Assembly (NCBI RefSeq): GCF_009389715.1
Contig: NC_052394.1
Span: 22,136,899 to 22,200,898 of the forward strand
DNA length: 64,000 nt
DNA from: Phoenix dactylifera
Lineage: Eukaryota > Streptophyta > Magnoliopsida > Arecales > Arecaceae
Direction: 5' to 3'
Part shown: piece after piece, positions 17,033 through 56,900 of the stretch
Position numbering within the stretch: position 1 is the first letter of the stretch
Layout of the letters: each line of letters opens with the position of its first letter
Notes under the pieces: model-generated
The model's database searches: none
Told to the model about the DNA's origin: nothing
The model's input: the letters and a program-made list of their open reading frames with translations, nothing else
Made by a program: the position numbers and the translations under genes

Positions 17033-20000
17033 GATCAGATTAAGCCACCTGTGATCACTTAACAAACAATAGCTACTAAGATTAGGAGAGAAATGAGGAG
17101 TGAAAGCTCAAGTCAGGAGTAGGAATATAAATAGGAGGGGGGTACGGTGGGGCAATGGAAAGGAGAAACACGAGGAGATGAGGGGTCAGAGTGTTCACGT
17201 GGGAGATGGGAGATGATTGGAGGAGACGAGATGAGGGAAATTTTATGCCGCCTATCGCAATCGCCCAGCGTGGGATACGTCCCTCAAGCCTTCACGTGAC
17301 GGTGGGCCCCAATTTTGGCTGGCGGGCCAACCACGCTGCCGCCCGATCGAGCAACGACACGCCAGCCGACGGCCCCACGCGCCGCCATCCCGCTTGCTCC
17401 TCCCTCCACCCACCTAATTCTTTTTTTCTTTTTTTACTTTCGTTTCCTTGCTTCCTTTCAAATTAAGATTGGCATGTTTAGCACGTCTCCTTGCATTAGG
17501 AGACTGATGTGGCCCACTTGATCAATTTATCCTATATCAAAATAAATTTTATTTAAAATAATAATTTAAATTTAATTAAATAAAAAATTATTTTATCAAG
17601 TAATTTTCGTGATGGATGAAAATTATTAGAGATAAATCTTATGGATAAGAATATGGGTTCCTAATCTAGCAGTATAAATAAGCTTGCCATCACCTAAGGA
17701 ACTCAAGTCCTGCATAAGTTAGATGATCCGGATCTTCTCTCTTCCTCGTGGGATCTCTTCTCTTCTCTTTTTTTACTGATGTGATAACTTCGTGCTTGAA
17801 CAACAAGGACGGAGGCGGTAAAAATTTTATTTATTTATTATTCTGCAGCTTATACTTTGTCCAACATGGCATTGTTAGGTATTATTATACAATCTTAGCG
17901 TGAACAGAAATATTAGCAACCAAGTACAAAAGAGCACTATTTGCTTCTCTAAAAATATAAGCAGCTTCAGATGATTCCAACATAAACAACAACCTCTTCA
18001 AATTCACCAAAATAGGTTGTAGGGCATCAGATGATATCCTCCGACCAGTTACTTACAATGAGTTGCTTAACATCTATTTACTAAAAATTAAAAGATTCTC
18101 ACCACGGAAAGTGTGTTATTGGCGGGGCCTGAATCTGAACGTCATGTATCCACCATCGATGGAGTAGATATGTGTTGGTATTAAACTTGTAATTGCGGAC
18201 ATGTATGTATGTCTCTGCTAAAATTTAGAGAGATCAAATCTGACAGTTGAAAATTCAAAAGGGACGTGTTACAAATTAGAGGATTTCTCGTCCTTTGTAG
18301 TAAGCGATAGCATCCAGATGGGAGTAAACCCCAGCTATCGTTCTCAAGTCCAACTCCAAACGGGTTAAAGAAAGCAAGCAGTTCTCCCCATGTCGTTTCC
18401 TTCAACCCTGTTCGGATGGCCCCACGGTGGTTGTCTTTGTCCTTGCATTATTCAGCGTCAAGGCCCACTTCTCCACCGTTCTCGACGTCACGCGGCAGGG
18501 CCCCACGGCCACCAATAGGAAACGAAAGGTTCCTCGTCCGAGAACGCCACAGGTCCTTCTCCGGCCTGTCGCTGTTGAAATCTTAATCTGACGGTGGCCA
18601 TTTATATGCTCGTAGGGTGTCATTCTCCACCTCTTTCTCACGACTGATACGGAGTTGCTGTACCACAAGGACTAGCCAATAGCTTTTGAAATAATTGATG
18701 ATTTCAACATGTTATCAGATCCTAAGCTCGAACCCTACCTTCACACTCTTTTAACCTCATCAATAAAAATTTCATATATTAAGCTCATCTATTAAAGAAA
18801 ATGTCCATCATTTGGTGTAGCAAATTTATCATTTGCTACACCGCTACCAAGCTGTCCCTTCTGGATTACACAGCCTGATCTCTCAGGCTATGAGTGGCAG
18901 AGCATCGTCAAACACTTCATCATGCATGTCACTGGAGGTGGTGCTCATCTCAATTAATTAAAAAGTGAGAACATAAGCCCTGAGAAGCGAATCTAGTTTA
19001 GCTTTCATCTATTTTGAATGTGTTCGTACAAGAGCTATATGAATCATCCATTTTAGAAAGAAAAAAAAAATAGTTCTCATGAATTATGCCACTTCCAGCA
19101 GAATGCTAATGGAGGGAATGTGTTACAGGGGCCGTTCAACCCACATCACGAAGCGACCAGGATACACAACCTCAACTGTTTTAAATAAGTGCAACCCAAA
19201 CTGTCAGTCTTTGTAGACCTAAATCTGATTGCCAGTTGGAAGGCATATGTCTGTAACCGTAGCTGCTTACCCCTTGATAAAAATAAAACCGTAACAGCAA
19301 ACTCCTCGTGTGAATATCATTTGTCTGGTTCTTCAGCAGCAGGAGGGCTGCCTAAATCTGTGCATATGTTTTACAGCTGCAATTGCTTACAAACCTGATG
19401 CAAATACAGCTCTAACAGCAACGCCTTATGGGAACTTTATTTGTCTGGTTCTTCAGCAGCGTCTGAAAGACCATGGCTCAAAAATAAATTCATGCGGATT
19501 TCACTGCGAGGTCACCTTTACATGTTTCTTAGCTGGGAATACCACCCAATTTTTCCATAGGAGAAAGGAATAGAAATACGGCAATTGGAGTAAATATTCT
19601 GTCTTTAACGTTTCCCTGGGTACGCACCGCTGCAAATGCCCTTTTATCGACCTGATTGGTGCAGTGTCCCCCAGGGTTTGATAAAATGACGACAGTATTT
19701 AACGTTTAAAGGACAATGCAAGAGGACAGCGATTGAGCGGATTCGATCATCCTTTCTCAATCAATTCTTATCAGTTTGCAAGCCTTCCCTTCTAAGAGAG
19801 CCCAGGTATTCTGGGCCCTCGCCCCATATAAAAAAAAAGCCAAAACTAGAGAAGAAAAAGAGCTGCGCTTCCAAACAGCCGAGCACTTCATGCAAGATAT
19901 TTCCCCCTGGTCTGAATCAGGAAGAAGCCCTGTGCTACCTCACAGTCGCAGCCTCTTCTTTTACCTCCCCCATCCTATCCAGAGCAGCTCTTAGCCAGCT
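17033..20000. other. Intergenic region, promoter-like island at 18400-18670
   Basis: The left end is the promoter of the small minus-strand gene. At 18400-18670 GC content jumps (GGGCCCCACGG, ACGTCACGCGG) and the minus strand has a TATA-like CATATAAATGG near 18605, followed by a 74-codon open frame from 18405 down to 18181 (starts MKETTWGELLAFFNPFGVG) that I cannot assign. At 19250-19460 there is a diverged 120-bp tandem duplication. The rest is AT-rich without recognisable coding. Confidence 0.4.
19250..19460. repeat. 120-bp diverged tandem duplication
   Basis: The string TTGTCTGGTTCTTCAGCAGC occurs at 19321-19340 and 19441-19460, exactly 120 bases apart. The ~70 bases before each copy also align (AGCTGCTTAC / AATTGCTTAC, GTAACAGCAA / CTAACAGCAA), with many changes. 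Confidence 0.8.
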
Positions 20001-23000
20001 TCAACCGTGGATCACAAATTTTGTAGTACGACCAGAAGCCTGCGATCAAGATAACATTCAAAAAAGGGTCTGAGAAAGCTACAAACACAACAACTGGAAT
20101 GCAATAATCTTTCAACCTTAACATGATCATAAGTTACCGACTGTGTTTGGAGTAATGAACAACTACCGTGGCATGCTTTCACCAGAAGCGGCTAGTGGAC
20201 AGGACTAGCACACACCTTATGGGGATTAGCCTAGGTTGGACCACAATTGATAAAATCGGCTTACCATCCTCCAGATGGGCTGATGTTGTCCGTCGAAATT
20301 GGAATTGATGAATTCTGGATAACTTCAACTCCTACCTAATTTTGGATTATTGATGGTTCTGGTTTGCAAAGACATCTATCAGACATGGGCTAATAGCATA
20401 GAAAGATAGCAACACTCAGATCAACTGCCATGAACATGGAATGTCTTGGAGAGAAGTATATTTCAACTTGAGTGAGGTTACAGCCAAGCATAAGAATGCT
20501 GTAACAAAATAAGCAGGGGATCTGGAATGAGCATGTCAAAGACAAAAGACATTACCATTGATCTTGTGAAATGTGTGACTAACAGAAACTGTGAGCAGAC
20601 AAGTAATAGGCACTCAGAATTACCAAATTTGCTCACATGAATGAATAAGTGGATCAAGAGTGACAAGTAGGTGCATATATATAAACAAGATCACTCACTA
20701 CCATTTCTACTTCATAGATGGCAGTAAAATTTTAATATGCAAGTACAACATGTTCCCAGTGCATGTTATGATAGATATTCATCTCTGATGTTATGACTAA
20801 TAGTGGAATATTTTATTTAACCATGCCTCATTATGTGAAAGCAGTTTATGCTGCGAATCAATATATTATACATAAATACTTAAAAAGGAAGTGGGCCAAA
20901 TGACTAAAAAATGCTTACCATGAATGTGTGCTTTAATATTGAAACATTACAGATGTTGCTCCCTTGATCATGGGTAAGCTGTAGCCGTACATGTGGAATG
21001 CTCTTCCAACTTTCACCCAATGCAGGCTTCAAGATTCCTCCCTCTCCACCGACCATATGATTTGTCACCTAGTTGACATCATAAAACAAATTTAGTACAA
21101 CATTAGTGCCTGCTCTGAGATACATGAAATTCTAACACTTCTCATGTTAAGCAAGTGATATGAGGCCCTATTTCAGCAGTTCAAGGAGAAAAGCAAGTTC
21201 TTACATAACGTTTTCAACTTATCTGTTGAATAGAATTTGCACCATTAAGAAATGAAGTCATTCGTAAAAAGGCGGACATAACGCCAATTGAGGATAAATT
21301 ATGAGAAGGATGTCTCAGATAATTTGGACATGCATAATATGGAATGAGGAATGTATCAGTACAAAAAAGTGATTTAATACATGTAGAAGAAACCAAGAGG
21401 AGTAGAGGTAGACTGAAAATCACATGGGATGAAGTATTAAGGACTTGATATCTCAACATCATGTAGCCGACCCCAACTAATTTGGGATTAAGGCTTATCT
21501 GAGTTGAGTTTCTTTCCAGATGACCCAATTGGTCCCCTGTAATATTAGTTTTCAAAGGAAAACTCATACCCCCATGTAGTAATACACAGAAACAGTACCT
21601 AGAAAGTGAACCTTTTGCTTCAAGCAATAAAAAATAGTATAAGGGTACAAAGACAACATGGATGAAGTTCTTGCCTGACGTTTTCAGTTTATCCATTCAA
21701 CAGAATTTGCACCAATATTCTCTGGAATTTATTGGTCCCCTTTATATAAGTTTTCAAAAGAAAAGGCATATCCCCACCTGATAATACGTTTGAACAGTAC
21801 CTAGAAACTAAAGCTGTTGCTTTAGGCAATAAAAATAGTGCAAGCGAACAAAGGCAACATGGATGAAGGCCTGCTTATGCAGAGCGAGCATACTGCCAGC
21901 CAAAAAAACCCAGAAATTTCAATGAACTTCGATGTAGAGGTGTAGGCATGAAATTATCATTCAGCAAAACCCATTTACCACATAGACTGCAGAGTGTCTA
22001 ACATGCAATTTTCCAAAGTTCTAAGATTCCAAATAAACAGTTTTGCACCACATAAACAAATAAAAAACACCAGAATTTTAAATATATCTGTGCTTACCAA
22101 AACAGAGACATTGTGCTCATTTGCTAGTTTCTTCAAAATAATTCCAGCAGACACCATCAAAAGTCGTCCTGCATTTCCAATATCCATCAAACATTTAAGC
22201 ATGGAGGAACTTTGCACATAATGCATCCTGTGCATCTTGTACGGAGACATCAAAGGCCATTACAGCAATGTATTGCAGCTAATACTGTATGTGCATGAGT
22301 GTATGCTTCCACTATGATACACCTTGGCAATCAGCCATTTTTTCACCATTTCTTTTCTATTTCATCTTCATTTTCTAGATAAATCAAGAGGAGACAGATG
22401 GAGTTACTTAAGGCTTTAGGCCTCATGAATCTCTATATTGCACTAAATTGTGGGAACAACATGAATCCTCTTCCATTATGACACACCTTGGCAATCAACC
22501 ATTTCTCGACATTTTTTTTCTATTTCATCTTCATGGAGATAGATGGAGTTGCTTAAGGCTTTTTAGGCCCCATGAATCTCTATAATGCAGTGAATTGCGA
22601 GAACAACATAAATCATCGCAACCAAGTGCTTAAATTTTCTATAAATTGCATAAAATTCTCGGTCTTAACTTTCAATTTAAATCAGTGTTTTATGAGGTCC
22701 TTCAGGGCCTAATCCAACCCATTGATTCTCAACCAACCTAATCTAAATAAACCTTAACCATAACAACCTGATATATAGGTCAAACAATATGGTGTTGAAT
22801 TTGCTTCAGAATAAGTCGGCTGTTGCAGGGAAGATTAGGCTTGCATTGTATTAAGCCTGGATTGGGCCATAACATCACTTACCCACTGAAGTTGTACAAC
22901 ACTACGAACTGGGCAAATTCTAGTTTCTGTTACTTGGAATCCTAGATACCTTTCACAATAAATTACAGCCCTTAAGCCTCTTATATAGTTTTTCTTGCAT

Positions 23001-26000
23001 TGATCTGTAGAAATCCATGAAGGTTAGCTTTTCAGATCAGAACTTCCTGATGTACTAAATTTGACTCTTATGCTTGTTCCAACACAAAGTCATTCACCTT
23101 AAAGTTTGTCAATATTGCACAAAATAAATCCTGTACTGACATAATTGTGAAGTGTATAAAGGGATTGCCCTCATGGCACAATTAGAAAATGCCAGCTCAC
23201 AGCCTCACAATAGCTGTAATTTGGAGCTAACATGATGCAGACACATTAAATTGGAATAGGAGATTTCAGATGAAAAATCTACTTCCAAAATGCCTGATTT
23301 TACAATCGAGCATCAGGGATATACCTTCCGAACCTTTGCCTCCAAGGACAGGGGTTAGGAGAGAGGAGATTGAATCGATAATTAGCAAGCATATCTTCGT
23401 ATGTCCACTTGTTACCTGAACCATTCATCACAAAAACTCAAGGCAATAAATAATAGATATATAGTTTTAGCAATATTATCATTCAAATTTTTTTTGTTGG
23501 ATAAAGACCTGATGCTTTAAATTGAATTCTAGTTGATGCAGTACATCCAAAAGTGCAAAGATGTCAAAAATTGAGTGACAAAATATGTTGCTCATAATCC
23601 TTTTAAGTCTTCTTTCTTTGGCCTAAAATCAAAAGAATTCATCAAACAAAATGAGCGGTTAAACACAAGAGTAGGCTCTATTTATTTCTCAAACAACTTA
23701 ATATTCTAGAATTATGACATGGACAATTCTTGATATTCACTAAATGAACAAACACTGTTAAGTCTACGAAGAATTTTGACGAAGAATAGAAATTGACCTC
23801 TCCGGAAAAAGAGCTAGAAAGTTGATCAACCATACATGCAATACGCTTCGGAGAAAAGGAATTACATGTGTCCAAGAACATAACAACACCAAAATGCTTG
23901 TCCGCAACATGTGCAGCAGAATATAGACAAACCTGCATGGGCACAATGGTGAATTAGAAGACACAATGGCTCAAGACTGTCTTGACTGCCTATTTAAAGT
24001 TTGAGAGCATGTAGGCCAAAACAAGCATCTTGGGATAAGAAAACTACATGGACAGATGATGAAGCATTTCCCATTAAAAAAACTGATCCCTGAGTTTAAA
24101 AATATTTAGTGCTTGGGAGTTCTAATAGAGTCAAAACATTGAGCATTCTTACTTGTGTTTTACCAGAAGATGATGACCCAACTATTTCTGTCAACTGGCC
24201 TTCACACAAGCCTCCTCCAAGAAGCACATCAATCCTAGCAATTCATGCAGCTAAAAAGATCACATCAATTTTAAGAATAATGCATCTCAACTGGAACTTA
24301 GTGAATCAAAATTTTATTAAGGTCCACAAAATTACATTCAAGATACCCTTCATATCCAGTGGGGAGAAAATGCTTATTACGATTAGAATCCTCAAGCAAC
24401 TCCACTCCATTCAACCATGGCTGATGCCAATCCTCCATCATCGGTTGAACTTGAGCGAACCCCTATTTTCATTCTATAAGATTATCTTAACATATTTTGG
24501 TGTAAAATACCAAATTATAGTAGGCAAAATAAGGAAGCCTTTCAACCCCCTTCAAGCTTCAGTAAAGAGAATGAAGATACCATAAAAGGATAAGCATGAA
24601 TGCAGCTTTATGAAGATTCAATGCAAATGCCACAAGAAGATTGTAGAAGCTAGCTCACCAAAACTTCACTAAAGAATATGCATCTATAAGAAGTTAACGC
24701 TATTTCCTTGCGTGCCATGGATTTGGTTAAATATATAATTGTTAACATATCAACTACAATATCTGGCAACATATTGAAATAACTTTGTTGGAGTGAGACA
24801 CAGGAACAACTTAATTAGATCCAATCATAGCTTTTAAACACAGAATAGATTGGCCTGTCTGACCAGAAAACCAGTGAAGAGGACCACAAGCTGGTACGAT
24901 TTTACCAGACGACCGGAAATGCACTTGACCAGCAAAAGCCAGTGATCTGACCAGTTTTTTCGAGAAAACTGATGACCAGGCCAGTCCCGAACGAATCACT
25001 AGTTTTTTTTTTTCACTTGACCCAAGGACCATGGTACTCCTGATTTAAACAGGGGTCTGTTTAAAATTCAGAGACAATTTAGACATTTAATTATAATAAA
25101 ATATTTTTTAAAAAGAAAGCCCTAATTGCCTGTCACGTCTGCCACCGCCATTGTTATCAGACACCAGAGTCAGAGAGGACCATCAAAATTAGTGGATCGC
25201 CAGATAGAGAATTGAAAATAGTAGATCACCAGAACGAGAATCAGAGAAGGGATGGAAAGGGGATGACGGAGATGGGCAATTAGGGCTTTCTTTTTCTAAA
25301 ATATTCTTTTATTATAATTAAATGTCTAAAATGTCACTAAATATTAAACAGCACCTGATTAAATCAGGAGTACTTTGTAAAACAGGCTGGGTCACTGGTT
25401 TTTGGCCAGCTCAAGTGCATTTCTAGTCCTTTGGTAAAATTGGACCAGGCCGGGGTCTGGTTCAGGAACCTAGTGACCTTGTTACAAGTATTTAAAGTTA
25501 TGGTTTCAATGGTAAGTCAAGGCTAGAAGCGCTTAACCCTTGAATTCAATCTTTGGCATACTCGAGGAGCTGTATAATGTATGCCCATAAATAAAGCCTA
25601 TGTTGAATTTATAAGCTTCTCATGCCAAAAGTTCCCATTCTTGATACGGTTTTCTTCGTTCCTCGTAACCATACATAAAAGTACCCATAAATTTCTGTCA
25701 AGAGACAATCACAGCCCCCAGTTGTAGTTTACAACATCATAGTCATTCATCTTAAACCCTTTTAACATCATGGCCCTTAACTCCAGATGTGTGAGTTTTC
25801 TGGTCGGACCAATCCGTGGTATATCAAAATCACAGAAAGTGGAAGCAAGGAGGTGTTTCTACTTAAAAGGTACATTTATCATGGAAAAAAATTGAAGAAT
25901 TGATCCATCCACAGAGGAATTTAATAAATAAGCAGGACATTCGAACAAAACATGCAAGCACAGAAATTATACTGCTGAAAAATACAAGCACCGCTGCATA

Positions 26001-26450
26001 AGCTTTCATTGAAAAAATCCAAATTAGAGACGGAGAGAGCATTAGATGAAAACAATTGGGGCATTTTGTTGTTTTCTTCTCATAAAGATCACCTGATGGA
26101 TAACATAGGGCAAATGGGGCGTATCCAAGAAAGACGATTGCAAGATGAGGCAACCAACGAACGAATACAGTACATACAAATCCGAGACAGAATAACACAA
26201 GATTCATATAAAAAAAGAGAAACAGACACTAATTTCCTTTTTAGCAATAATTTCAGCGGAACAAATCGGCTAGTAAGTGATAGAAAGTAGAAGAGAAAGT
26301 CGAAAGAGGTACCGCGTCGTCGGACAAGGAGCGGTTTCCCTCCTCTAGGGTTTTGGCGCACTTGGAAGCACGCGAAAGAAAGGACGTAGGGTTTCCAGAC
26401 GAGGACACAGAGGCGGTGGCTTTGGACCGTGGCTCGTTGAACTCTGCCAT
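20001..26450 (-). CDS. RAD51D: RAD51D-type RecA-like recombination protein
   Basis: Nine minus-strand exons join in frame: 26313-26450, 24347-24462, 24153-24234, 23798-23932, 23509-23622, 23325-23415, 22098-22168, 20919-21068, 20001-20039 (stop), 311 aa against about 322 in Arabidopsis. Walker A is GSSSSGKT (residues 104-111), Walker B LLIID (205-209). Family matches: [86 protein letters not shown], and ending [15 protein letters not shown]51D works in the RAD51 paralog complex in homologous recombination; in plants it also affects defence gene expression (recalled). Odd point: residues 1-46 do not resemble the usual plant N-terminus, so exon 1 is the least certain part, and the acceptor before 24462 is A-rich. 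The 1.85 kb first intron holds a foldback element; other introns hold a LINE tail and tandem duplications. The start codon is divergent from the U12 gene. Confidence 0.88.
21190..21880. repeat. ~200-bp tandem duplication in RAD51D intron
   Basis: TTGGTCCCC, a TTTTCAAA(A/G)GAAAA stretch, ACAGTACCTAGAAA, GCAATAAAAA and GGCAACATGGATGAAG-like blocks recur at about 21529-21690 and 21732-21870, offset about 203. A piece also sits at 21200-21245, separated from the rest by the inserted LINE tail. Confidence 0.75.
21245..21515 (+). mobile_element. RTE-type LINE 3' fragment in RAD51D intron
   Basis: The fragment ends with GCCGACCCCAACTAATTTGG, then GGGATTAAGGCTTATCTGAG and TTGAGTTT, the 3' tail I know from plant RTE LINEs; upstream are remnants of the C-terminal coding region (AGAAGGATGTCTCAG, TTTGGACATGCATAATATGG, CACATGGGATGAAGT). 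It is 5'-truncated and decayed. It splits one copy of a local tandem duplication: the sequence before it (GAATTTGCACCA) and after it (TTGGTCCCCT) are contiguous in the neighbouring copy. Confidence 0.75.
22306..22612. repeat. ~164-bp tandem duplication in RAD51D intron
   Basis: CTTCCACTATGATACACCTT at 22306 recurs as CTTCCATTATGACACACCTT at 22470, and blocks such as TTCTATTTCATCTTCAT, GATGGAGTT and CATGAATCTCTATA follow in both in the same order. About 10-15% different by eye. Confidence 0.85.
24875..25465. mobile_element. Foldback (long inverted repeat) element in RAD51D intron 1
   Basis: The left arm runs to GCCCTAATTGCC (25130) and the right arm starts at GGCAATTAGGGC (25275). Moving outwards the arms pair for more than 180 bases: AATTATAATAAAAT with its complement, TACTCCTGATTTAA with TTAAATCAGGAGTA, AAATGCACTTGA with TCAAGTGCATTT, and GATTTTACCA with TGGTAAAAT. 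The left arm has an extra ~65-base segment (about 24955-25020). The 145-base loop is GC-richer. The layout fits a foldback or MULE-derived MITE; the family is not assigned. Confidence 0.75.
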
Positions 26451-26496
26451 GGCCGTCCTCCTCCTCCTCGGAGCCGGTGGAAGGGAAGTTATATGC

Positions 26497-26511
26497 TCTC
26501 CCGCTTGCGGG
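26497..26511. promoter_or_regulatory. E2F-like back-to-back motif between RAD51D and U12
   Basis: TCTCCCGC (26497-26504) is followed after two bases by GCGGG, giving CCCGC and GCGGG in mirror orientation. E2F sites are TTT(C/G)(C/G)CGC, so this is a 7 of 8 match. Its place ~50 bp upstream of the RAD51D start would suit S-phase control of a repair gene. This is inference from a short motif. Confidence 0.35.
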
Positions 26512-26582
26512 CGAAGGCCGGAAATGAAACTCTAAAAGAAGCCGACAAGTTGAATCAGCAAGGCGGAAGCGTCCCTTTACTT

Positions 26583-26594
26583 AGTCCCATATCG
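26583..26594 (+). promoter_or_regulatory. Upstream sequence element (USE) of U12 gene
   Basis: AGTCCCATATCG matches the plant snRNA gene USE (RTCCCACATCG) with one difference. It starts 77 bases before the predicted RNA start and its end is 35 bases from the TATA box, close to the 33-34 spacing known for RNA polymerase II snRNA genes rather than the 23-24 of polymerase III genes. Confidence 0.85.
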
Positions 26595-26629
26595 GAAAGA
26601 CTGAAATGGGTGAAACGCTCTCGGGTCAA

Positions 26630-26635
26630 TATAAA
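26630..26635 (+). promoter_or_regulatory. TATA box of U12 gene
   Basis: TATAAA, 30 bases upstream of the predicted first RNA base at 26660, as expected for plant snRNA genes. Confidence 0.85.
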
Positions 26636-26659
26636 CCAGGCTTGTTGCAGCGTTTCAAC

Positions 26660-26810
26660 TTGCCTTAAACTAATGAGTAAGGAAAACAAAGCGGGTGGTG
26701 AGAGCTGCCCGCCGCGCTAATCTCTTTGCGCAAGTATTTTTGGAGGGTTTATAGGCTGGCCGAGCGAGGACGCTGCTTACTTCGCAGAACCCGCTCGTGC
26801 GGGCCTCCCC
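26660..26810 (+). ncRNA. U12 spliceosomal snRNA (minor spliceosome)
   Basis: The RNA opens TTGCCTTAAACTAATGAGTA followed by AGGAAAACAAAG, which matches the start of human and Arabidopsis U12 almost base for base; the GTAAGGAAA segment (26677-26685) pairs with the U12-type intron branch site. Next come a GC stem (GCGGGTGG...CTGCCCGC, 26691-26712), an Sm protein site TATTTTTGGA (26735-26744) and a terminal hairpin CCCGCTCGTGCGGG (26790-26803). About 151 nt, as in human U12. U12 binds the branch point of the rare U12-type introns, where U2 acts in ordinary ones. The gene has its own USE/TATA promoter and a 3'-box-like signal. The first base is T where A is usual; everything else looks functional. 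Confidence 0.93.
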
Positions 26811-26825
26811 ACCCCAACAATTACC

Positions 26826-26832
26826 AATCTAA
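26826..26832 (+). terminator. 3' box-like end signal of U12 gene
   Basis: AATCTAA, preceded by CA ten or so bases earlier, resembles the plant snRNA 3' box (CA, 3-10 bases, AGTNNAA) with one difference, and lies shortly after the terminal hairpin. Confidence 0.5.
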
Positions 26833-27915
26833 GCCATATTTGTTTTTTGCTTAATGCTTCCACTGTTCTTATTTGATTGGATTTGCAAAATCAAGTGGAG
26901 CGCTTTATCGGGAATCAGTGTGCAGGGTCTTGAAGTTGCGTTTCACCATGTCGCTATCATCCATAATTTTATAATCAATCAACTCCTTTTTGATGCGATA
27001 AACGTGGAAGCATTGCAAGAAAGCTTTGGCCACCTACCTCTTTGTCGAACCTGATCAGATGCTGTATTAATATTGCTCGACGAATGTCGCCAACTGCCCA
27101 GCCGATGGGTTAACCTCCTTCTTTGGGCCGGATGACTAGACTTGTTCCATTTAAAATGTTAAAAGGCGTGTGATGTATTTTAGATTATCCTTATGACTAT
27201 ATTGTCTTTTTTATTGCTCATCATTCTGAAAAAATTTTATGGACTCACTGTGTACATGTTCTACCAGAGTATTTTGGCTTACAGCTCTGTTAGCAATGCT
27301 CACGCGAAGTTAGTGTGGGCGGCCGGTTTATTAAAAAAATATATATTACAGATAGGTTTCGAGTGGCCCATCTGCTTTCCTACTCTCTTTTTTTTTTTTT
27401 TTTATGTTCAGCCCCTTTTCTTCTAATTTTTGGGTAACTTATCTTTTTCTTCTGTTTTTTTTTTTTTTGTTGAAAATCTTTTTCTTCTGTTCAGAAATCA
27501 AAAGGCCATCTTGCGGCCAGAGAATCTGGAGAGATGCAGACCACAATTCTAACAGCTGACGCGTGTCCCGTCCTATTTCCGAATATGATTCGGTGACCCC
27601 AACGGCAGCGGAACACCCTCCCCCATCATCGACGCTACCTCTCTCTCCAAGCGTCCCTACAGAAACCCCTATGCGGGCTCCAGGGTCCAGATCATCTCCT
27701 ATCCTGGCACAATCAACGGCAGATCCTATGTTCCTTATACAATCTATTATGCGGAACTCGCGCACGTCTCCTCGTCTTGGATCGTGAGCGCGCATCTCTT
27801 GGCTGGTCATTTGAAACAAGCTATTTTTATTTTTTATTTTTTGCTGCTGATAAAGTGAAGAGAAAAACGGACTAATTTTCTGGTCTCTCTTTGGTCTTCG
27901 CCTTTCCGCCTGTAG
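26833..27915. other. Region between U12 and actin, including actin promoter
   Basis: It is mostly AT-rich up to 27480, with T-runs at 27389-27403 and 27457-27468, then a GC-richer block from 27540 to 27790 that belongs to the actin promoter. A 162-codon frame on the minus strand (27439-27927) and a 74-codon frame on the plus strand cross this block, but neither shows a known domain. Confidence 0.5.
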
Positions 27916-30078: not shown

Positions 30079-31510
<1,432 letters not shown>

Positions 31511-41400: not shown

Positions 41401-44400
41401 CGTCGAGTGGCGATGCCTCTTGTAGATATCCAAATTATTAACATAGTCAGAAAGCACATCAGCCTACCCCTCTAACCAAACGACGTTGTAGTATTGTATG
41501 TTCATCTTATAAAGAACGTGCTCCAGGTTATAAGCACCCTCGAATCTTTTGCTAAAGCTTTGGCACTAAGAGGCAAGGATTGCCGAACCGGTACCAGGTG
41601 CCGTACCAGTCGGCACCCGATACCAAATCGATACTGGTTACTGAACCGATCACCAAAATGCCATAACACCGCGTTGTGGCCAAAAATGCCACAGCACGAG
41701 CACGCGCGTTGTGGCAAATCTAACCGGACTCGGTGCGAACCAACCGGTTTGCACCAAATCCTGGCTGAACCAGACAGAACCGGTCTAGTTCCGTCCAGTT
41801 TGCTCTCTTACCAGTCAGTTCCGGTCCCTACGGGCCCAGAATCATTTTATATGCCCGAATTGAACCCGGTTAGAGACCGGGTTGGCTCGGTTCGGCCTGA
41901 ACCGGGTGCTATGGCCCGGTTCGGCTTGAAGTGGGTGATACGGCCCAGCTCGGCATTCCTTGCTGAGAGGTGTCTTCTGGCTGATAAACTAATTGATAAA
42001 ACAACTACTTATTTCTTTATTTTTTTTCAAATTGAGGCCTAGATCATTGTGCGCATGATCGTATCAAAACTTGAATATTTTGGACACCAAATTTTGCTAG
42101 AGAGTAGCTTACATGCCCCTAAATGCGCTTCTAATTTTAATATTTTTTAATATTTTTTTTATTTTTTAATCCAAAAATATATTTTTATTTTTTAAAAATT
42201 ATATATAATCCAAAAATTAAAAATTTTTATGTCATCATGTAGATCATCCATAGATCTACAATATATAATAAAATCAAGCCCAAATCTAAAATTTTAGCAT
42301 GATCTCTTCTTATTTTGCAAATTTCGAGCTATTTTTTTAAGTCTAAAAGAAATGAGGGAATTAGATAGGAAAGAGAAAGCACACTTTATTTAAACTTCAA
42401 TCTTCCTTCAATCATGCCCAATCGGTGTGATATTCACCGTGAAGGAAAGGGAGAAAGCCAGAGAGCTTAGAAACGATGTTGGGAAGGCTTCTTTTAATCA
42501 GCAAACAAAGAAAAGAGGAGGGAGCCCGGTTCAGAAGCAAGTCGACTCGGTGTTAACCAGACAGTTTGCACCAAATTTGAACGAAACCGGCTGGTTCTGA
42601 ATGGTTTCGAACAGTTCCATGCCGGTTTCAGTTGGTTCGGTCTAATTCGGGCCTTTATTGGCCGGTTTCGGAATCGGTTCCAGCCGGTTCAAAGCCAAAA
42701 CTGACTCTACTAGGCGAACCAACCCGATTTCCCACCGAGTCGGCTCGGTACAGGCCGAATCGGACAGTTCAGTCCGATTCGGCCTTCTTTGCTCATGGGT
42801 TTTTCTTTTCCATGAAACATGAGATTCTTATTCTCATATAAATGCTACTTTTCTATCTCTCTCCTTTGAAAACTCCAACCAAACAAGAGGTCTTTCTTCT
42901 TTTGCCAGTTGACCGCACTTTTTTTCTTTTTTTTCTGCGAACCAAACGAGTCCTAATAGTGGGTTGCAAACTGACTAACAAGGATGAATGTGTTCTATTT
43001 TATGCAATAATTTGTAGAGGATATCAAGCAATGCATCAAGATTGCACAATCTACTTGATAATGGCAAACTAACTCAGGTCATATATTGTCCAGTTAGATT
43101 AGTGATTGTATAACTGAAACTTTTGTCGCTGCTAGCACTTCACAAGTAAAACTTTACAGTAACAGAAATACAAGACATCAACTAAAACAGTTGGCATCTG
43201 ATGTTTGCTAGTGGAGATATCAAATATAAAGTCATCCTGTATTGAATTGCTAAAATAAATCAGTAGAACATAACCAAACCTCCGTACAAACCTAGAAATG
43301 ACTAGAGTTTCGAAAAGTCATGATGTAACATATAAAGTAGAACTTTGAAATGTCATATAATTTTCATATTGGTTACTGCCAAAGAGATTATAAGATAGAT
43401 ATTAGTAACACCATCATCAAGTATTTTCAAATTCTTACCAGGCCCATTACAGCAGATATCACAATTGCAGCCAGGGCACACTGAAATAAATACAAGAAAA
43501 GCATGCTAAGCATGTATATTCATGATCATTGAGTAGCAGCTAGACAAAATCTGAGAAGCAACATTGAAAAGTTCTGATAATATAAATTGAATCATATGAT
43601 ACAAAATCACACCATCCATTTAGGGAGGGTTATATGGATCCTTTCTCTGAGGCCAAGTCTTCAAAAATAATAATAACATAAGATGGAACCCATTAAAAAC
43701 CAAAAAAAAAACAAAACAAATTTGCAAAAATTTCGCTGATGAAGTAAATTAAATTGCCCTTTGTTTCAAATGCAATATGCACTTAGGGAGACTACACCAA
43801 CCCGCCTGTACCCACACACATACACACACAAAAAGGGAGAGAAAAAAAGAAAGGAAAGAAATAAAAGAAATATGATGTGTTGACTGGTGTGGGTCAGCAG
43901 AAAAAAAATTCCCATTCAAAAGAACACCACTGAAATGTAGTATGCACTATCCAATGTTTTCGAGAAATGTTGTTGGCTAACCAATGATTCAAAAGCTTAA
44001 GATGTTAGGGAATGAGTTAACAATGTATATCAAGCTTAACATCCCCCCTCAAATGCAGCCGGGACCATGCACATGGAGGGGCAGCCGAGTGAAGAGAGAG
44101 ATAAGATGATATACAAGAAATAGGATCAAAGTTAACTAGGAAAAATGACAAAAATAACTGAACTAGAGGGAATTCAAACTCATGCAATCCAACAACCTGA
44201 GCTCTGACTCTAACAGTAGATACTCTGATAATTTTCAATCCAGTACTGAAGGAATCAGGTTAATTCTGACATGATCAATCTGGCAAGAGTTGGTGTTCAT
44301 TTCTTTCAGAAGTACAATAACCCTATGCTTATAACTGCATATGTTGTATGAGAGTATTTTTCCATCTTTATATACTTCGTACTATCATAGAGCCTCCAAA

Positions 44401-47400
44401 AGTCCAACCTCCTTAGGTTTATATGCTTTTTATCATAGAAAGAAAAATTTATATCTGTAGTATCTGCAGGCATTCTTGATTCTGCGTGTTTGTCACTATG
44501 GAGTTCTGTACTATATTGTGCTTGAACTATTCTTATGTATTTAACTTCCAGGCCAGTGCTAAACATACTTTCATCGTTGTGAGCACTCAGCATTTTCAGT
44601 TTGTTGGTTTAAATTGCATGAATAAACTAACTCCTGGTATCTTAGTAAGCCAAGATTATCGGTAGTTGAATGGCCAAAAAACTTTTCAAGGCAAAGTCAT
44701 ACCTGAGGTATTTCACTAAACAGTGGTGTCATAAACAAAAGAGCACATCCCATAATAATTCCCATTACGATTCCAGACAATCCAGTTTTGGCCCCACTCT
44801 CATGATTTACAGCTGATCTAGAAAAAGATCCTGCACATAAATACTCAAATGTCATCTCATGGAAACATGCAAGTTTAGTTTAAGCTTAAATGTTTCTCTC
44901 TGACTATGCAAAGAAGAACAAATTGCAAATCTCAGACCATGTTTGCGGGAAAAGAAAAGTCAGTATCTCACCAGTTATAGGGTATGCAGAGAAGAATGAC
45001 CCACAAATATTTGCCACGCCTAGCCCAAACAACTGTAAATGAATGAGCATGAGATATCTCTTAGTATACAATGAAATAAGAAAAAACAACCATTAGCTCT
45101 GTCAACTATGTAAGTAACTGACTGATGTGCCATCAAGCACTTGGCATTTCAAATTATGCAATCTTCAACCTAATCATTCGTCACAAAATTATCCTATATA
45201 AAAGAGATCTATATTCAGAACATGTAAATTATATATTTTGAGATTTGCAAGTGTACTCAAAAGAAAAAATATTTGAAGCCCACATTTGGAGACTCTGTTA
45301 TTCATATTACATCTGGAAGCTAGAATTTCTAGCTTACAATACCTTTAAATTGATAGATATCCATTCCAGTTTCCAAAAAAGACAGTGCAGATGTCTTCAA
45401 AACAAGACTGATGGCAGAATTCTGTTGAGAATCACATGTGAGGTTTAGTGCCACATAGAATAATAATGGAAGTTACGTTGATTGATATAATAGTGGGCCC
45501 AAAAAACTAATGGTCTAAGCTTTTGGGTCAACTTGGGTTCCAACGTGCATATCAAGTTCCTTGATACCAACTCCTTGACACCCCAACAAGTGGTACCAAG
45601 CTAATGGTGGTGTTCCTGGGCAAGACTCTCAAAGCAGTGAAATGTTCTCCAATGTTGGTGGTTCTTCGAACAGTAGCATGTCGGTAAGTAGAGTCTATTC
45701 ATGGTGGTCACAATATGCCGAGTTGAATAAGTGGACTTGATGGAGCAAGCATAGGATTTGAGCACAAGCTTAATGCAGCAAGTCGATGACTCGATGGAGC
45801 CAGATGTGGAGTCAGAGCATGCTTAGGCATGATTCTTGACGAGGACTCTTATAAAGGTATGGTGAAACATGGCTCTTGAAAAGCGAGTAACTCTTGGTTT
45901 TGAGCCGAACGTTTTGTGGTAAGTGTGGCTCACGGTAGTCTTGTCAATGGTATAGATTGGGACCTTACCCGACTTGAACTTTGACCTAAGCCAAGCCTAT
46001 CCAGGAGCCCAACCTAATCTGGAAACCTATAATATTTCATGAAGAGAGAGAAAGATAGATAGCAAACTATGCTCTCCTCGACTCCCCTCTTCGTCGCCCT
46101 CCTCTTCACCACCTCCTCACTGCTCCCTCTCTACACTGCCTCGTCAACCATTCCTCTCCACAGCTGCCACCGATGCCCTCTCTAGCCTTGCTACAAGCTC
46201 TTCATCACCCTCTTCTTCACCACCTCCCACTGCACCACCATATCCTCATTCCTTCCTCTCCATTGATGCCTTTTGACACCCTCCTTGCCACCTCACGTCA
46301 AAGCTCGAGATGAATCAAAGTGGGGGTTTTCTTCTTTTTTTTCGGGAGGGGGGGGGGGGGGGGGGGAGATTAGAGCACTCACGACTCCAATTCATAAGAC
46401 GAGAGTCATTCAAGAAATTGAGATTGAATCACTGATGAAGCAATTTCAACAACTCCAGTCAAGCTCCTTTTCTTCCATTTTTTGGGTATAAAGATTTTTT
46501 TTCTTTGGTCTCTAGAGAGAAGAGGAGAGGAGATGTGGGTTGCACCGAATCAGGTTGAACTCGGGTACTCGTGTCCGAATATCAGGTAGGATCGGATTGG
46601 ACCTGACCCATTGGCAGGTCTCGGATTGGACCTGACCCATTGGCAGGTCTAGCTCATGGAGACTAGGCTCTTGGGCTAGAGCGGTAACACATGGTGCACT
46701 TAGAAGAATAATTGGGCATAGAGGATTGGATTCGAGGGAAGTTAAAATCAGTTCGCACATGAAGGGGGAGAATGTTGAGAATCACAAGGTTTAGTCCCTC
46801 ATGAAACAATTAAATAAGGCACATGGATTATATAGATGAATGGGTCAAAAAAATAGCAGTTTAAGCTTTTGGGTCAACTTGGGTTCCAACGTGCATGTCA
46901 ATTCCCTTGGTTACAACTCCCCATCTCCCTAACAAGAGCCAGGGCCACAATACATGATAAAAGGCATTTAGGAAAATATTCAGAACACTACATGTCAGAT
47001 TGTAACGAAGTCTCTCTCCTCTATAGTGAGATTATTCTGCCTAGGCTTCTACTCGGCATATGGAAGCTGATTTACTAAGCAAGCTTGTTATGCAACAATT
47101 ATCAGAATAAGACAATTTTAAGTGGTCTCATCTAAAGTAGAACTTTGACTACTAGTTTCCTCTTACTCTAGGATTGTATTTGGAAGTTTTAGACCTGCTT
47201 TATTTGACTTTAGCAGACAAGACATACAAAAATATTGTTAGAAGGAAAATAAATTACGATTTCTCAAAGTTTTAGGTTGGCTCTATGAATCCCACATCAT
47301 CAATAATCCCAACTGGAATAAATTTTCGTTATTTCTCATTACAACAATTTAAGATTTCAAAGTATTGTAAGTAGGGATTCTTTAAGAAAATCCCAGAAGC

Positions 47401-51800: not shown

Positions 51801-53990
51801 ATTATTATAAAGCATTCTTAATTTACAAATTATTTATTTTGAATAATGCATTCTACTATTTCTACTACTAAAACGTATATCTACTATTTCTATTGCAACT
51901 TTGTACGGTAAAAATTATTAGGCTTAAATCTCCAAAAGATGGTCTTAGATACAGTCATACTGCATAGATAGTGATAAGACGTTACCCGCTATTGGTCTGG
52001 TTTTCATCGTGAAATGCTTGACTTTCCATTAATAAGTATCCTTACTAAATCAGCCTGTGAGATTGTGATTTGTACATTGTAATTGAAACAGTACTTCACA
52101 CCAGGAAGCAAACCGCAGTTTGGATCATCGAATAAAAAAAGGAAAATAAAAGAAAGAAAAATAAGACGACTGCAGAAGTAATTAGACATTACGTGTAAGA
52201 GGTCAATAGTTGATGTGGGTAGGGCACCTGCCCTTTCCAGCAATCACTGCCGGGATCTTTAAAACTATGATAGACAATAAATATATTGCTATCAAACTTC
52301 AAGCATCAGGACAGCAACATAATTTTAATTGTTGCAGGAAAGAAACAGAGGGTTAATGGTTGAATACCTTAGCAAAGCCATGAGACATTCCAATATGCCA
52401 ACCATCAGCGCCAACAATATTGCAAGCTCAGTGTACAGCTCATTAGAAGGTTCAACTATGTGGCTCAAGACATTAGACACCAAGAGCGATACTAATGCCA
52501 CCGGACCAACTGCCAGTTGACGTGATGATCCAAATATAGCATATATGAATATTGGAACGAACCCTGAATCTGTACAAAAAATGTTGGCCTTGAGGAACAC
52601 AGCATACTATACTTGAGAAAAAAATCTTTAAAATATTGAAAAAAGAAACACACAAATTAAAGTAATACTCACAAAGCCCATATATTGGATGAAGCCCTGC
52701 CAGCTTTGCATATGACATTGCCTAACATTTGTGTATATTAAAAAAATAATAATCAGGTATTCTATAATCACATCAGTTCCAACAATTTCATACATATTAT
52801 TGAAATTTCTATCAAAATGGACCCCAAATCACTAATGTAGGAGTGACTTATATAACAAATTTTGACCTCCACAACGCAAGGCCATAGTCCACAGTTATAA
52901 AAAAGCATCTGTTCGTGTTGAAATTGAATTCCAAAATTCTATGCCTGGACTGTTATTCCAATGAATTATATGTTTTGGTAACTATGTGTAAAACTTCTGG
53001 TTTATAGTTTTACCCAGTGAACTTAGGATAAGTCTACTTTTATAAATAAACTCATTCGATTAATTTCTTTTTTATGATGCATAAAGAAATTCAAAATACT
53101 GAAGAAGGAAGAAAGAATCTTTAAAGAAAACAAAGAAGTTAGCATAAACCAATCTTATTATACAACAATTTCAAGAAATTGCTACCATGATGCTAGGAAG
53201 AAACCGTGTACTGCAACTCATTCCAAGAAATAACTGAAAGAGTGATTTTTTAGGGGGAAAAAAAGAAGCCAAGATTGTTCAACCAGTCTTGGACCGAATC
53301 AAGAATCCCAAAACAGAAGTGTGGTACACAAGATTCATAGAAGCCAAGAATATGACGGAACATAGCATCAACACAACAAGAAATGGGAGCAAAAAATCTT
53401 GGAAAAATACAGAGAAAAAAAGACGAGATCAACCAGTCATTCTCCGAGAACATTGAAGAAATTGCTACCCTATACACTTGCAAGAAACCCCGCATCACAT
53501 TAAACTATCATAAACCAATCATTAAACGAAAATTTTCAAAAAAATTTCATCCGGGCAACTTCCAAGAAACCTTGCGTCCTATTCAATTACGTGAAGAAAA
53601 AGAAAAGGACTAATCAAAACTTTCTTTCTAAGGAGGAAAAATTTCAAGATAATGCTTCCAGGAACCAAGAATCCGTAAAAGAAAATGAGTAGAGAGAGAG
53701 GAGGAGGATTGGTTAACCTGAGGGACGAGCATGACACCGACGGTGAGGCCGGACATGAGGTCGACCTTGAGGTATTCCCGCCAGCGGTATGTCCGGATCC
53801 AGCTGGAGCACGGGAGGAAGAGCTCCATCCACTCCACGGCCGTCATCGCCCGGAGCTTCGCCCCCCATCTGGCCACCAGCGTCGCCGACGGCTGCTGCGG
53901 GGGCGGCGACGACGTCGACGCGTGCTGGAACGGGATCACCTTCACCGTCCGGCCGCCGAAGGCGACCGCGGCGTCGGTGTCCGTCTCCAT
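35160..53990 (-). CDS. SULTR4: SULTR4-type sulfate transporter (SLC26/SulP)
   Basis: Seventeen minus-strand exons, all in phase: 53718-53990, 52673-52721, 52368-52569, 51262-51430, 50911-50976, 50693-50800, 49601-49708, 49432-49497, 44972-45032, 44703-44830, 43439-43480, 38913-39029, 38222-38273, 37471-37609, 37249-37337, 35555-35631, 35160-35426; 670 aa (Arabidopsis SULTR4;1 is 685). Membrane part: [95 protein letters not shown]-terminal STAS domain from about residue 490 ([50 protein letters not shown]), ending EPLLPQERV. Group 4 SULTRs release sulfate from the vacuole. The 18.8 kb span comes from two 4.4 kb introns (39030-43438 and 45033-49431) filled with mobile elements. No break seen. 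Whether it is the 4;1 or 4;2 counterpart cannot be told. Confidence 0.95.
35433..35470. repeat. (GA)n microsatellite serving as pyrimidine tract
   Basis: About 19 GA units. Read on the minus strand they are (TC)n ending AAGTAG just before the last SULTR4 exon, so the microsatellite forms the polypyrimidine tract of that acceptor. Confidence 0.9.
39520..40451. mobile_element. Non-autonomous hAT element in SULTR4 intron
   Basis: The element starts TAGGGCTAAAAACGGATCGG and its far end reads, as complement, TAGGACTGAAAATGGGTTGG, giving imperfect terminal inverted repeats of over 20 bases. It is flanked by a perfect 8-bp duplication GTATAGGC (39512-39519 and 40452-40459), the size typical of hAT. 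It is 932 bp and has no transposase frame. The subterminal parts repeat motifs like GATATCAA and GGATACGAAT; the middle (39900-40090) is GC-richer with GAAACCCTAGCCG, possibly a captured host fragment. Confidence 0.85.
40965..42792. mobile_element. GCAAGG-ended inverted-repeat element, copy 1
   Basis: Left end GCAAGGTTTGTCGAACCAGT, right end as complement GCAAAGAAGGCCGAATCGGA. Subterminal parts are full of GGTTCGG and ACCGGT words in both orientations. Flanks TTATGG and TCATGG match at 5 of 6 positions and may be the target duplication. It contains a second, smaller member (41573-41963) and a longer middle than copy 2. No transposase frame seen. Superfamily not assigned. Confidence 0.65.
41573..41963. 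mobile_element. GCAAGG-ended element nested inside copy 1
   Basis: 391 bp; left end GCAAGGATTGCCGAACCGGT, right end as complement GCAAGGAATGCCGAGCTGGG. Flanks TAAGAG and TGAGAG match at 5 of 6. Almost all of it consists of GGTTCGG/CCGAACC-type words, so it is the two subterminal regions with hardly any middle. Confidence 0.65.
45423..46934 (+). mobile_element. Small non-coding LTR retrotransposon (TRIM/LARD-like) relic
   Basis: Two direct terminal repeats, about 45423-45588 and 46773-46934, both start TGTTGAGAATCACA and share TTTGGGTCAACTTGGGTTCC. Two bases after the left one is TGGTACCAAGC, like the initiator-Met tRNA primer site; right before the second one is the purine tract GAAGGGGGAG. 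The 1.2 kb interior has no gag or pol and includes CT-rich stretches and a G-run at 46343-46366. The repeats differ by perhaps 15%, so the insertion is old. A 5-bp target duplication was not evident. Confidence 0.7.
46592..46649. repeat. Perfect 29-bp tandem duplication
   Basis: The unit TCGGATTGGACCTGACCCAT plus TGGCAGGTC occurs twice in a row without a difference, inside the LTR relic. Confidence 0.95.
47685..48597. mobile_element. GCAAGG-ended inverted-repeat element, copy 2
   Basis: 913 bp; left end GCAAGGTCCGCCAAACTGAT, right end as complement GCATGGTCTATCGAACCGGG. Inner blocks shared with copy 1 include TTTAATTGGTAATCA, TTTTCAATGATTTTAAGTCT, GCTACAAGAAACAACATAAA and TCCATAGATCTACAA, but the middle found in copy 1 is absent. 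Flanks TCTAGA and TCTAAA match at 5 of 6. Confidence 0.7.
48780..48829. repeat. (TA)n microsatellite
   Basis: About 25 TA units in a SULTR4 intron. Confidence 0.95.
50231..50447. mobile_element. MITE of 217 bp in SULTR4 intron
   Basis: It starts AGGGCTTGTTTGGCTGCC and the far end, as complement, is AGGGCTCATTTGATGTTTGG, so there are terminal inverted repeats around GGGCT..TTTGG. The inside contains paired CCACTTGGCCTGAAGTGG-like words. Family not assigned. Confidence 0.65.
51561..51930. mobile_element. MITE remnant in SULTR4 intron
   Basis: It begins AGGTCCTGTTTGGGATTGTT, a common MITE opening, followed by direct repeats of TAGAACTTTTGGAAGTAGAG (twice between 51596 and 51650). A matching right end was not found, so it is truncated or decayed. 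Confidence 0.5.
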
Positions 53991-56900
53991 TATCGCCGCC
54001 CTCCCACCCGTCTACTCCTCGCTCTCCTCCCTCCAATCCGGCGACGACGATCAAAGAAACGATTAAAGAAAGAAGGAATCCTACGTCAACGTGCTTAATT
54101 CTTGATTGCACGGGGGCGCGGGGGCGTGCGCGGTCTAAAGGATGTATGTGGACCGCACCGCCGGCTAGTTTCATTTACTCGTGGCGGAAAATAAATAGCT
54201 GGCGATTTTGTCTGCTTGCTCCTTGGTTGAGTTGAATTCTTTTGCAATTACGGTCCTCCATGGCTATGTGCTTATTTTTTAACTAAATGGGGCCGCTCTC
54301 AAATCACTGCCGTCCATGCATCACGTGATAGCCTGCGATCCCGATCACAAGCCATCGCAATCGCCAAAAAAGGCCCTCTCTGCGCTGAAAGGGCATTCAA
54401 TTTAATTATATATTAATTATTTAAATCATAAATCTATTTTACATCAGCCCAGTTGACGACAGGTGTTATAAGTATACGTAAAATATTTCGTTGCATGTCG
54501 CGAACTCCAAGTCGGGTGCGGGGCCGGGTCCCGATGGCACGAGTGGAAATGTAAGACCACACGTCTTCTCCATCTCCGGCGAGCGCTGGTGGGGCTCTTG
54601 GAAAAGGATGCGCGTGGACTGTCTTAGTGCAGTGTTCATAGCATCGATTGAGTGTGCCTATTGGTTCTTAAATTTGATTAGGTTTCTCATCTAATCTTGC
54701 CTAGGTTCAGGGACTGTAAGAAAAGGATGTTCGTGGACTGTGCATAACCGGCTAGGTTGATTTATGATAAAATCATTTTGTCCACTTCCCACCTATTCAA
54801 AACTATCAAAATTTCTTTGGGGGTGCGTGGCATATGCCGTACTCGAGAAGGGATAACATCAAATATTCACTTCAATTTTTTTTCTAGCCAATTATATGAC
54901 AATGTTTGAAAAAAAAAAAAAAAAAAGATTAGGCGGAGATGATCCTCGGCTTTGATATTAGGGTTGCATTTCGCATTGGCACGTGCATATACAAGTGATG
55001 CAAGTAAAAGCACAAAAAAATGATGATGGGTCGGAAGTTTTTCATGTAGGGCCGCCAAGGCTGTGCATATTTCATTGTCTCCTTGTCATCTTGATGTTGC
55101 GGTTGCAACTTTGACAAATTAGGTCAAGGATTTGGGTCACGGTAAACCCTAACCCAACCTAATGAGGTCTCTGGTTAAGAGTTTTTTTACCAAATCATTC
55201 CCTACTTGAGTTATACCTGGATTAGGTTGAGCCGGATTACGTAAATCGAGCTAGCTTAGGCTGAAAAAAAAAAGATTTGGAATGCATTTGTTGGTTTGAG
55301 GTCTCAAATCTTTTTTTTTTTGGTACATCAGCGGCTCACACACGACGGCAGTAAATACGGTCAACAAAATTTTAAATGAACCCTTACAAAGCTAAAAAAT
55401 CATGTAGCCCTACGTAACATAAATAAGAATTACACACACGGTCAGAGATACAAAGAATTACACACACATTATAAAACTTTAACCCAATCTTATCTAATAG
55501 GCAAGTTGGGCACGTCGGTTCGTTAAACCAACCCAAATTGCATACTTACTAAATGCCACTAGTTGCGTTAGACCATTTGTGGACAGCATTTTGTATGTAG
55601 GGTGCAGATCAAGCTCGATGACACGTATGGAGGGCGACATTGTGATGCAGCCCACTCGCAAGAAACCCTCTTTAAGTTGGCGGATTTAATGGGACTCCAA
55701 ATTATTGCTCTTTCATTATTCTGTTGACACATCTTAGCAATAATTGGGTTCTTTAGGTTTTTAATGATTTGTGATTCAGTATGTGTAAAATCTTAGTCAT
55801 CAAACAAATGATTATGTTACTTTATTCATATATAGATGTGTATGTAGATAGTAGAGCTTAGTTAGAACGAGCCATGTTTCATTATCGTAAACAATATAGA
55901 TAAATATGGTATTCCAGTTGACTGAAGTGAAAAGTGCATCTCTTCCAAGAGGTAGTGCTAATGAATGGTATCTTTTATTATTATGTAGAAATTTAACATG
56001 GCCTAAAAATAACGTCCTCTCTTCCACATTTACTTGATCTTACTTGGTTGACATCCAAAAGGTAGATCCAAAAGTACGGTCTACACCCTCTAGAAGCACA
56101 ACCTATGACCCTTAAGTAACATTTTGATATAATAAAATGTTTTATACTTTGTTGACGACTTGTTATCATCTAAAAGTAAAATTTACATTTTTGAAGATGT
56201 TTGTTTTTTTGAAATTTGGAGGCATTAACGATATCATTTTGATGGGAGAACACATTGGATCTTTCGGCCGAATGTCATGTTTATCAAGAGCTTGATTCTA
56301 ACATAAAAATATTAGCTCAATAATAAATTAATATAAAATATATAATTTAATAATTAAAATAATACTATAAAAAAATTTATTGGATGCCATTGTAAGATAT
56401 ATACATGTAGACACATGCATGTCAGCATGTAGATTATGATTTAGACATCTAAAATTCTAAAAATATAGCATATAAGCCCAACTTAAGCTCACATTAGATC
56501 AATCAACTGGTGGCATTCGAATCCGACTCCTAAATACGTATGTCATGGACGATCTAACCAATGCAGACCAACTTATTTGTCCTACATTGTGCGAGCGGGT
56601 GCCTGAGACATCATTTATATGAGCCAATGCATTCATTTGCCTAGCAACATTTTAGGCCTCGCATATCTTATCAGGTACTAAATCATTTTTCTTTTATGCA
56701 CGGTAAATCATCAATAGCGAATGGTATCCATAATTTTACTCACAATTAAGTCTATAAATTATCATATATAGACTGGGATTATGAAAGGGGAGGCTTTGTA
56801 TTGGGCAACCTTTTATTGAGGAGGACAATTAGATCATTAAATCTTTCAAGTCGCCATGCTTTAAATGGTGAGAAATCTTTTATGACACAACTCCTTTCCA

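Follow-up and report, generated by a model that had tools for sequence, protein, structure and literature searches.

The window analysed here, a continuous stretch of 64,000 bases (37.7% GC, no N), contains on its + strand a predicted U12 snRNA gene, a promoter-like module upstream of it, a weak 3'-box-like sequence immediately downstream and, further downstream, an actin gene. U12 is a small RNA that acts in the removal of a rare class of introns. The features of the U12 locus are as follows:

26584..26594, + strand, USE GTCCCATATCG (pattern scan, one mismatch to RTCCCACATCG)
26630..26635, + strand, TATA box TATAAA (sequence and module scan; first base 30 nt before 26660)
26660..26809, + strand, U12 snRNA (end-to-end match to RF00007; predicted 5' end at 26660, alternatively at A26658; predicted 3' end at about 26809-26812)
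26663..26682, + strand, stem-loop I, CCUUA...UAAGG (predicted fold; 5 of 5 model pairs unchanged)
26677..26684, + strand, putative branch-site-pairing segment GUAAGGAA (sequence, inside the conserved 5' block)
26691..26712, + strand, stem-loop IIa, nine predicted pairs, loop GAGA (predicted fold; 8 of 8 model pairs kept)
26714..26731, + strand, stem-loop IIb, GCGC/GCGC with a 10-nt loop (predicted fold; register differs from the cmscan alignment)
26736..26742, + strand, Sm site AUUUUUG (sequence; aligned to AUUUUUG of the model consensus)
26745..26809, + strand, stem-loop III (predicted fold; 19 of 24 model helix pairs kept, 3 broken, 2 gapped)
26773-26787, + strand, apical hairpin of stem-loop III (predicted C-G closing pair, 7-nt loop UUACUUC at 26777-26783)
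26818..26832, + strand, 3'-box-like sequence CAATTACCAATCTAA (scan, one mismatch to CAN3-10AGTNNAA; weak)

The assignment to U12 is based primarily on the covariance model. In the cmscan search of the window against Rfam, RF00007 (U12) matches 26660-26809 on the + strand over the entire model (positions 1-151 of 151), with a score of 94.6 bits against a gathering threshold of 53 and an E-value of 2e-17, and U12 is the only family that reaches its gathering threshold in the window. The first-pass annotation had described a complete-looking U12 gene and had named the Rfam model as the appropriate check; the locus passes this check clearly, and the elements of the U12 architecture are present, stem-loop IIb in the predicted fold only. 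A permissive scan (E-values up to 5) yielded nine matches in the window, of which the eight other than U12 fall below their own gathering scores and include no snRNA. That scan omitted an overlapping match of lower score, whose family (name not given) belongs to the same clan. Given this omitted match and the description of U12 as an analog of U2 in PMC545797, a chance resemblance, or confusion with another snRNA such as U2, is conceivable in principle. However, U12 is the top-scoring family at the locus and is matched along its full length at the above E-value, so that this reading is judged refuted and is hardly credible. No second copy of 26580-26840 besides itself was detected in the window by blastn (E-values up to 1), and no tRNA was found there by ARAGORN. 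A 26-letter U12 pattern (25 specified bases) occurs in no stretch of the viral or the bacterial and archaeal contigs, and its 20-letter core (19 specified) occurs in no viral contigs. The core matches two genome contigs (L001 and L002), and these matches were dismissed as chance occurrences, neither of the two 8000-base loci containing an Rfam match at the gathering threshold.

The 5' block is nearly identical to the Rfam consensus, with 28 of the first 31 aligned positions the same and differences only at position 1 (T for A), 28 (C for U) and 31 (A for C). This block includes the segment GUAAGGAA, which we take to pair with branch sites of the UUCCUUAAC type. Counting from 26660 as +1, positions 26682 and 26683 are equivalent to G23 and A24, the two nucleotides replaced in GA23/24CU, a branch-site suppressor version of human U12 (PMC4980772). 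The unusual first base pointed out in the first-pass annotation is indeed there: T at 26660 is aligned with model position 1, a lower-case 'a' in the Rfam consensus. An A is present at 26658, so that an RNA start at this position is conceivable, and the transcript might begin there with two additional nucleotides. Apart from these two, 26658-26810 is predicted to fold in the same way.

Stem-loops I, IIa, IIb and III all form in the minimum-free-energy structure predicted for 26660-26815 (-62.8 kcal/mol, z -2.86; none of 200 shuffled sequences as stable), and the Sm site, located between stem-loops II and III, is left unpaired. The fold depends to some extent on the 3' end: among the seven ends tried, 26809, 26810, 26812 and 26815 retain stem-loop I and 26803, 26805 and 26807 lose it. 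The stability of the fold by itself is not distinctive in this window, where 3 of the 426 tiled 150-nt stretches are as stable as, or more stable than, 26660-26809. These stretches are 53851-54000, 41851-42000 and 46501-46650.

The individual stems were compared with the model consensus. In the cmscan alignment, 32 of the 42 model pairs are kept: 21 have both bases as in the consensus, 3 differ from it at one base, and 8 differ at both bases without losing the pairing. The other 10 are lost (8 broken, 5 of these in stem-loop IIb and 3 in stem-loop III, and 2 gapped); this count compares a single sequence with a model consensus, has no chance level and leans towards pairing because the alignment itself is fitted to the structure. 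The eight two-sided changes appear to fit maintained stems better than decay. Among the kept pairs of stem-loop IIa, two are changed on both sides and two on one side. Stem-loop IIb retains none of its five pairs in the cmscan register and forms a four-pair GCGC hairpin in the predicted fold. A shifted or altered 5' end (A26658, or U at position 1) combined with a lineage-specific stem-loop IIb could make this RNA a small structural variant of U12 in a plant lineage, a possibility that we consider rather doubtful. In stem-loop III, the predicted apical loop UUACUUC is closed by a C-G pair. Binding of the 65K protein by human U12 depends on U115, A116 and C117 of the loop and on the closing pair C113-G121 (PMC4980772). 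In the predicted fold, both U-A-C and the closing pair are retained at the equivalent positions, so that stem-loop III is predicted to have kept the 65K-binding loop. In human cells, the stability of U12 requires an intact stem-loop III, according to PMC7968993.

The upstream region is organized like a plant snRNA promoter. The USE consensus, which we take to be spelled RTCCCACATCG, is matched with a single mismatch in the pattern scan, which bears out the previously reported departure from the consensus. Overall, the placement of the USE, TATA box, Sm site and hairpins proposed in the first-pass annotation is upheld by the sequence, the pattern scans and the predicted fold. The USE and the TATA box are separated by 35 nt. 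In plant snRNA genes, this spacing is approximately 33-34 nt for Pol II as opposed to approximately 23-24 nt for Pol III, so that the arrangement here would suit Pol II and not Pol III. USE-like sites alone, with up to two mismatches, are not found above chance in the window (13 versus 15.54 expected). The combination of a USE (at most one mismatch) and TATA[AT]A separated by 32-36 nt is found once in the window versus 0 occurrences in 60 simulations (first-order Markov sequences of the window length, both strands); with at most two mismatches, the same module occurs four times over the 60 simulations. The site at 26584-26594 is the only USE-like site (at most two mismatches) on either strand of the window that is followed by TATA[AT]A within 20-40 nt. 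The USE is printed as RTCCACATCG in PMC545797. The presence of a USE with a TATA box is also what points to a plant as the source of the DNA. The plant snRNA 3' box, CAN3-10AGTNNAA, is located downstream of the gene according to PMC545797 and PMC5079582. The 3'-box-like match here is not significant alone because the one-mismatch pattern is so frequent: the + strand of the window has 802 start positions for it, roughly one per 80 nt (about 0.5 per 40 nt).

Altogether, 26660-26809 is most likely a functional plant U12 snRNA gene transcribed by Pol II (probability of about 0.88). The basis of this reading is the sequence, the covariance-model match, the predicted fold and the promoter layout; transcription, processing, protein binding and a function in splicing are what we infer from the known biology of U12 and of plant snRNAs. 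Under this scenario, RNA polymerase II would be recruited by the USE and the TATA box, transcription would begin at 26660 or at most 2 nt away, and the end of the transcript would be cut near 26809-26812. The U12 transcript would then be capped and its AUUUUUG bound by Sm proteins, stem-loop III would bind U11/U12-65K and thereby join U12 to the U11 snRNP, and GUAAGGAA would base-pair with U12-type introns at their branch site. The RF00007 match, the promoter module, the fold, the 32 of 42 pairs kept and the loop U-A-C with its C-G pair all speak for a functional gene. Against it are the 0 of 5 pairs in stem-loop IIb, the three broken and two gapped pairs of stem-loop III, the T at the first base, the single change in the USE, the weak 3' box, the loss of stem-loop I with some 3' ends and the undistinctive stability.

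Several of these deviations, namely the changed USE, the T at position 1 and stem-loop IIb being off the model, would also be compatible with a duplicated copy, silent or weakly expressed (a young pseudogene or a spare), that has kept its promoter while most of the U12 is supplied by another locus; furthermore, the U12 copy count covers the 64-kb window only. Such a copy appears unlikely, however, considering the intact 5' block, Sm site and 65K loop, the eight model pairs that still pair despite two-sided changes and the retained USE-TATA module. In addition, a single U12 snRNA gene is given in the yerba mate genome paper, and minor snRNA genes are treated as low copy in the ASRG paper (PMC545797). 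A functional U12 gene thus remains the preferred reading. The locus is the likely site of production of the U12 RNA of this plant, which is of use in annotation and when minor splicing is to be tested in the species.

On the upstream side, a minus-strand reading frame at 26256-26450 (ATG at 26450) is divergent from the U12 gene, with 133 bases between the ATG and the USE, and the two may share their upstream region. This frame shows no Pfam match at an E-value of 0.01, and neither do the three minus-strand frames of 17500-26530. The only PDB sequence match obtained for the divergent neighbour is weak (E-value 0.035) and is not believed. The neighbour of U12 in Arabidopsis is presumably the PIG-P gene; no PIG-P match was detected in the minus-strand frames of 17500-26530, and synteny is not claimed. 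A minus-strand open reading frame at 21978-22259 was considered as RAD51-like and rejected, with no PDB sequence match (E-values up to 1) and no Pfam family.

Among the 60 stop-to-stop frames of at least 90 amino acids that were listed, 10 were run against Pfam, with two matching actin, one a sulfate transporter, one a cation efflux protein and six without a match. The actin matches (PF00022) belong to the gene downstream of U12 and span 30258-31507 on the + strand. A sub-threshold match to mir-3533 at 31093-31176 (43 bits versus a gathering threshold of 104) lies within an actin coding exon and probably reflects nothing more than the actin coding sequence. The sulfate transporter frame (PF00916; 51142-51474) and the cation efflux frame (PF01545; 61969-62367), both on the minus strand, are probably exons. 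A loose pattern for U12-type introns yields 36 candidate pairings of 93 to 3825 bases in the window, unfiltered by exons or chance level. A scan for bacterial promoters and terminators gave 0 promoter-like sites and one terminator-like site and is uninformative for a plant gene.

U12 genes are already known in plants, as indicated by PMC545797 and the yerba mate genome paper. The gene described here is an ordinary, expected member of the family that a routine Rfam scan suffices to detect; it is new as a locus only and leaves the general knowledge of U12 unchanged. It shares with the Rfam U12 family (RF00007) the full-length match, stem-loops I and IIa, the Sm site and most of stem-loop III, and differs in the T in place of the consensus A at position 1, in the sequence and register of stem-loop IIb and in the apical loop, which is UUACUUC here versus CUACUUU in the consensus. 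The Arabidopsis atU12 gene (ASRG) likewise has a promoter with a USE and a TATA box, according to PMC545797. The same upstream elements characterize the plant Pol II snRNA genes for U1, U2, U4 and U5 in PMC545797 and PMC5079582, whereas the present locus differs from these in that the RNA is U12, the USE deviates at one position and the 3' box is weakly matched.
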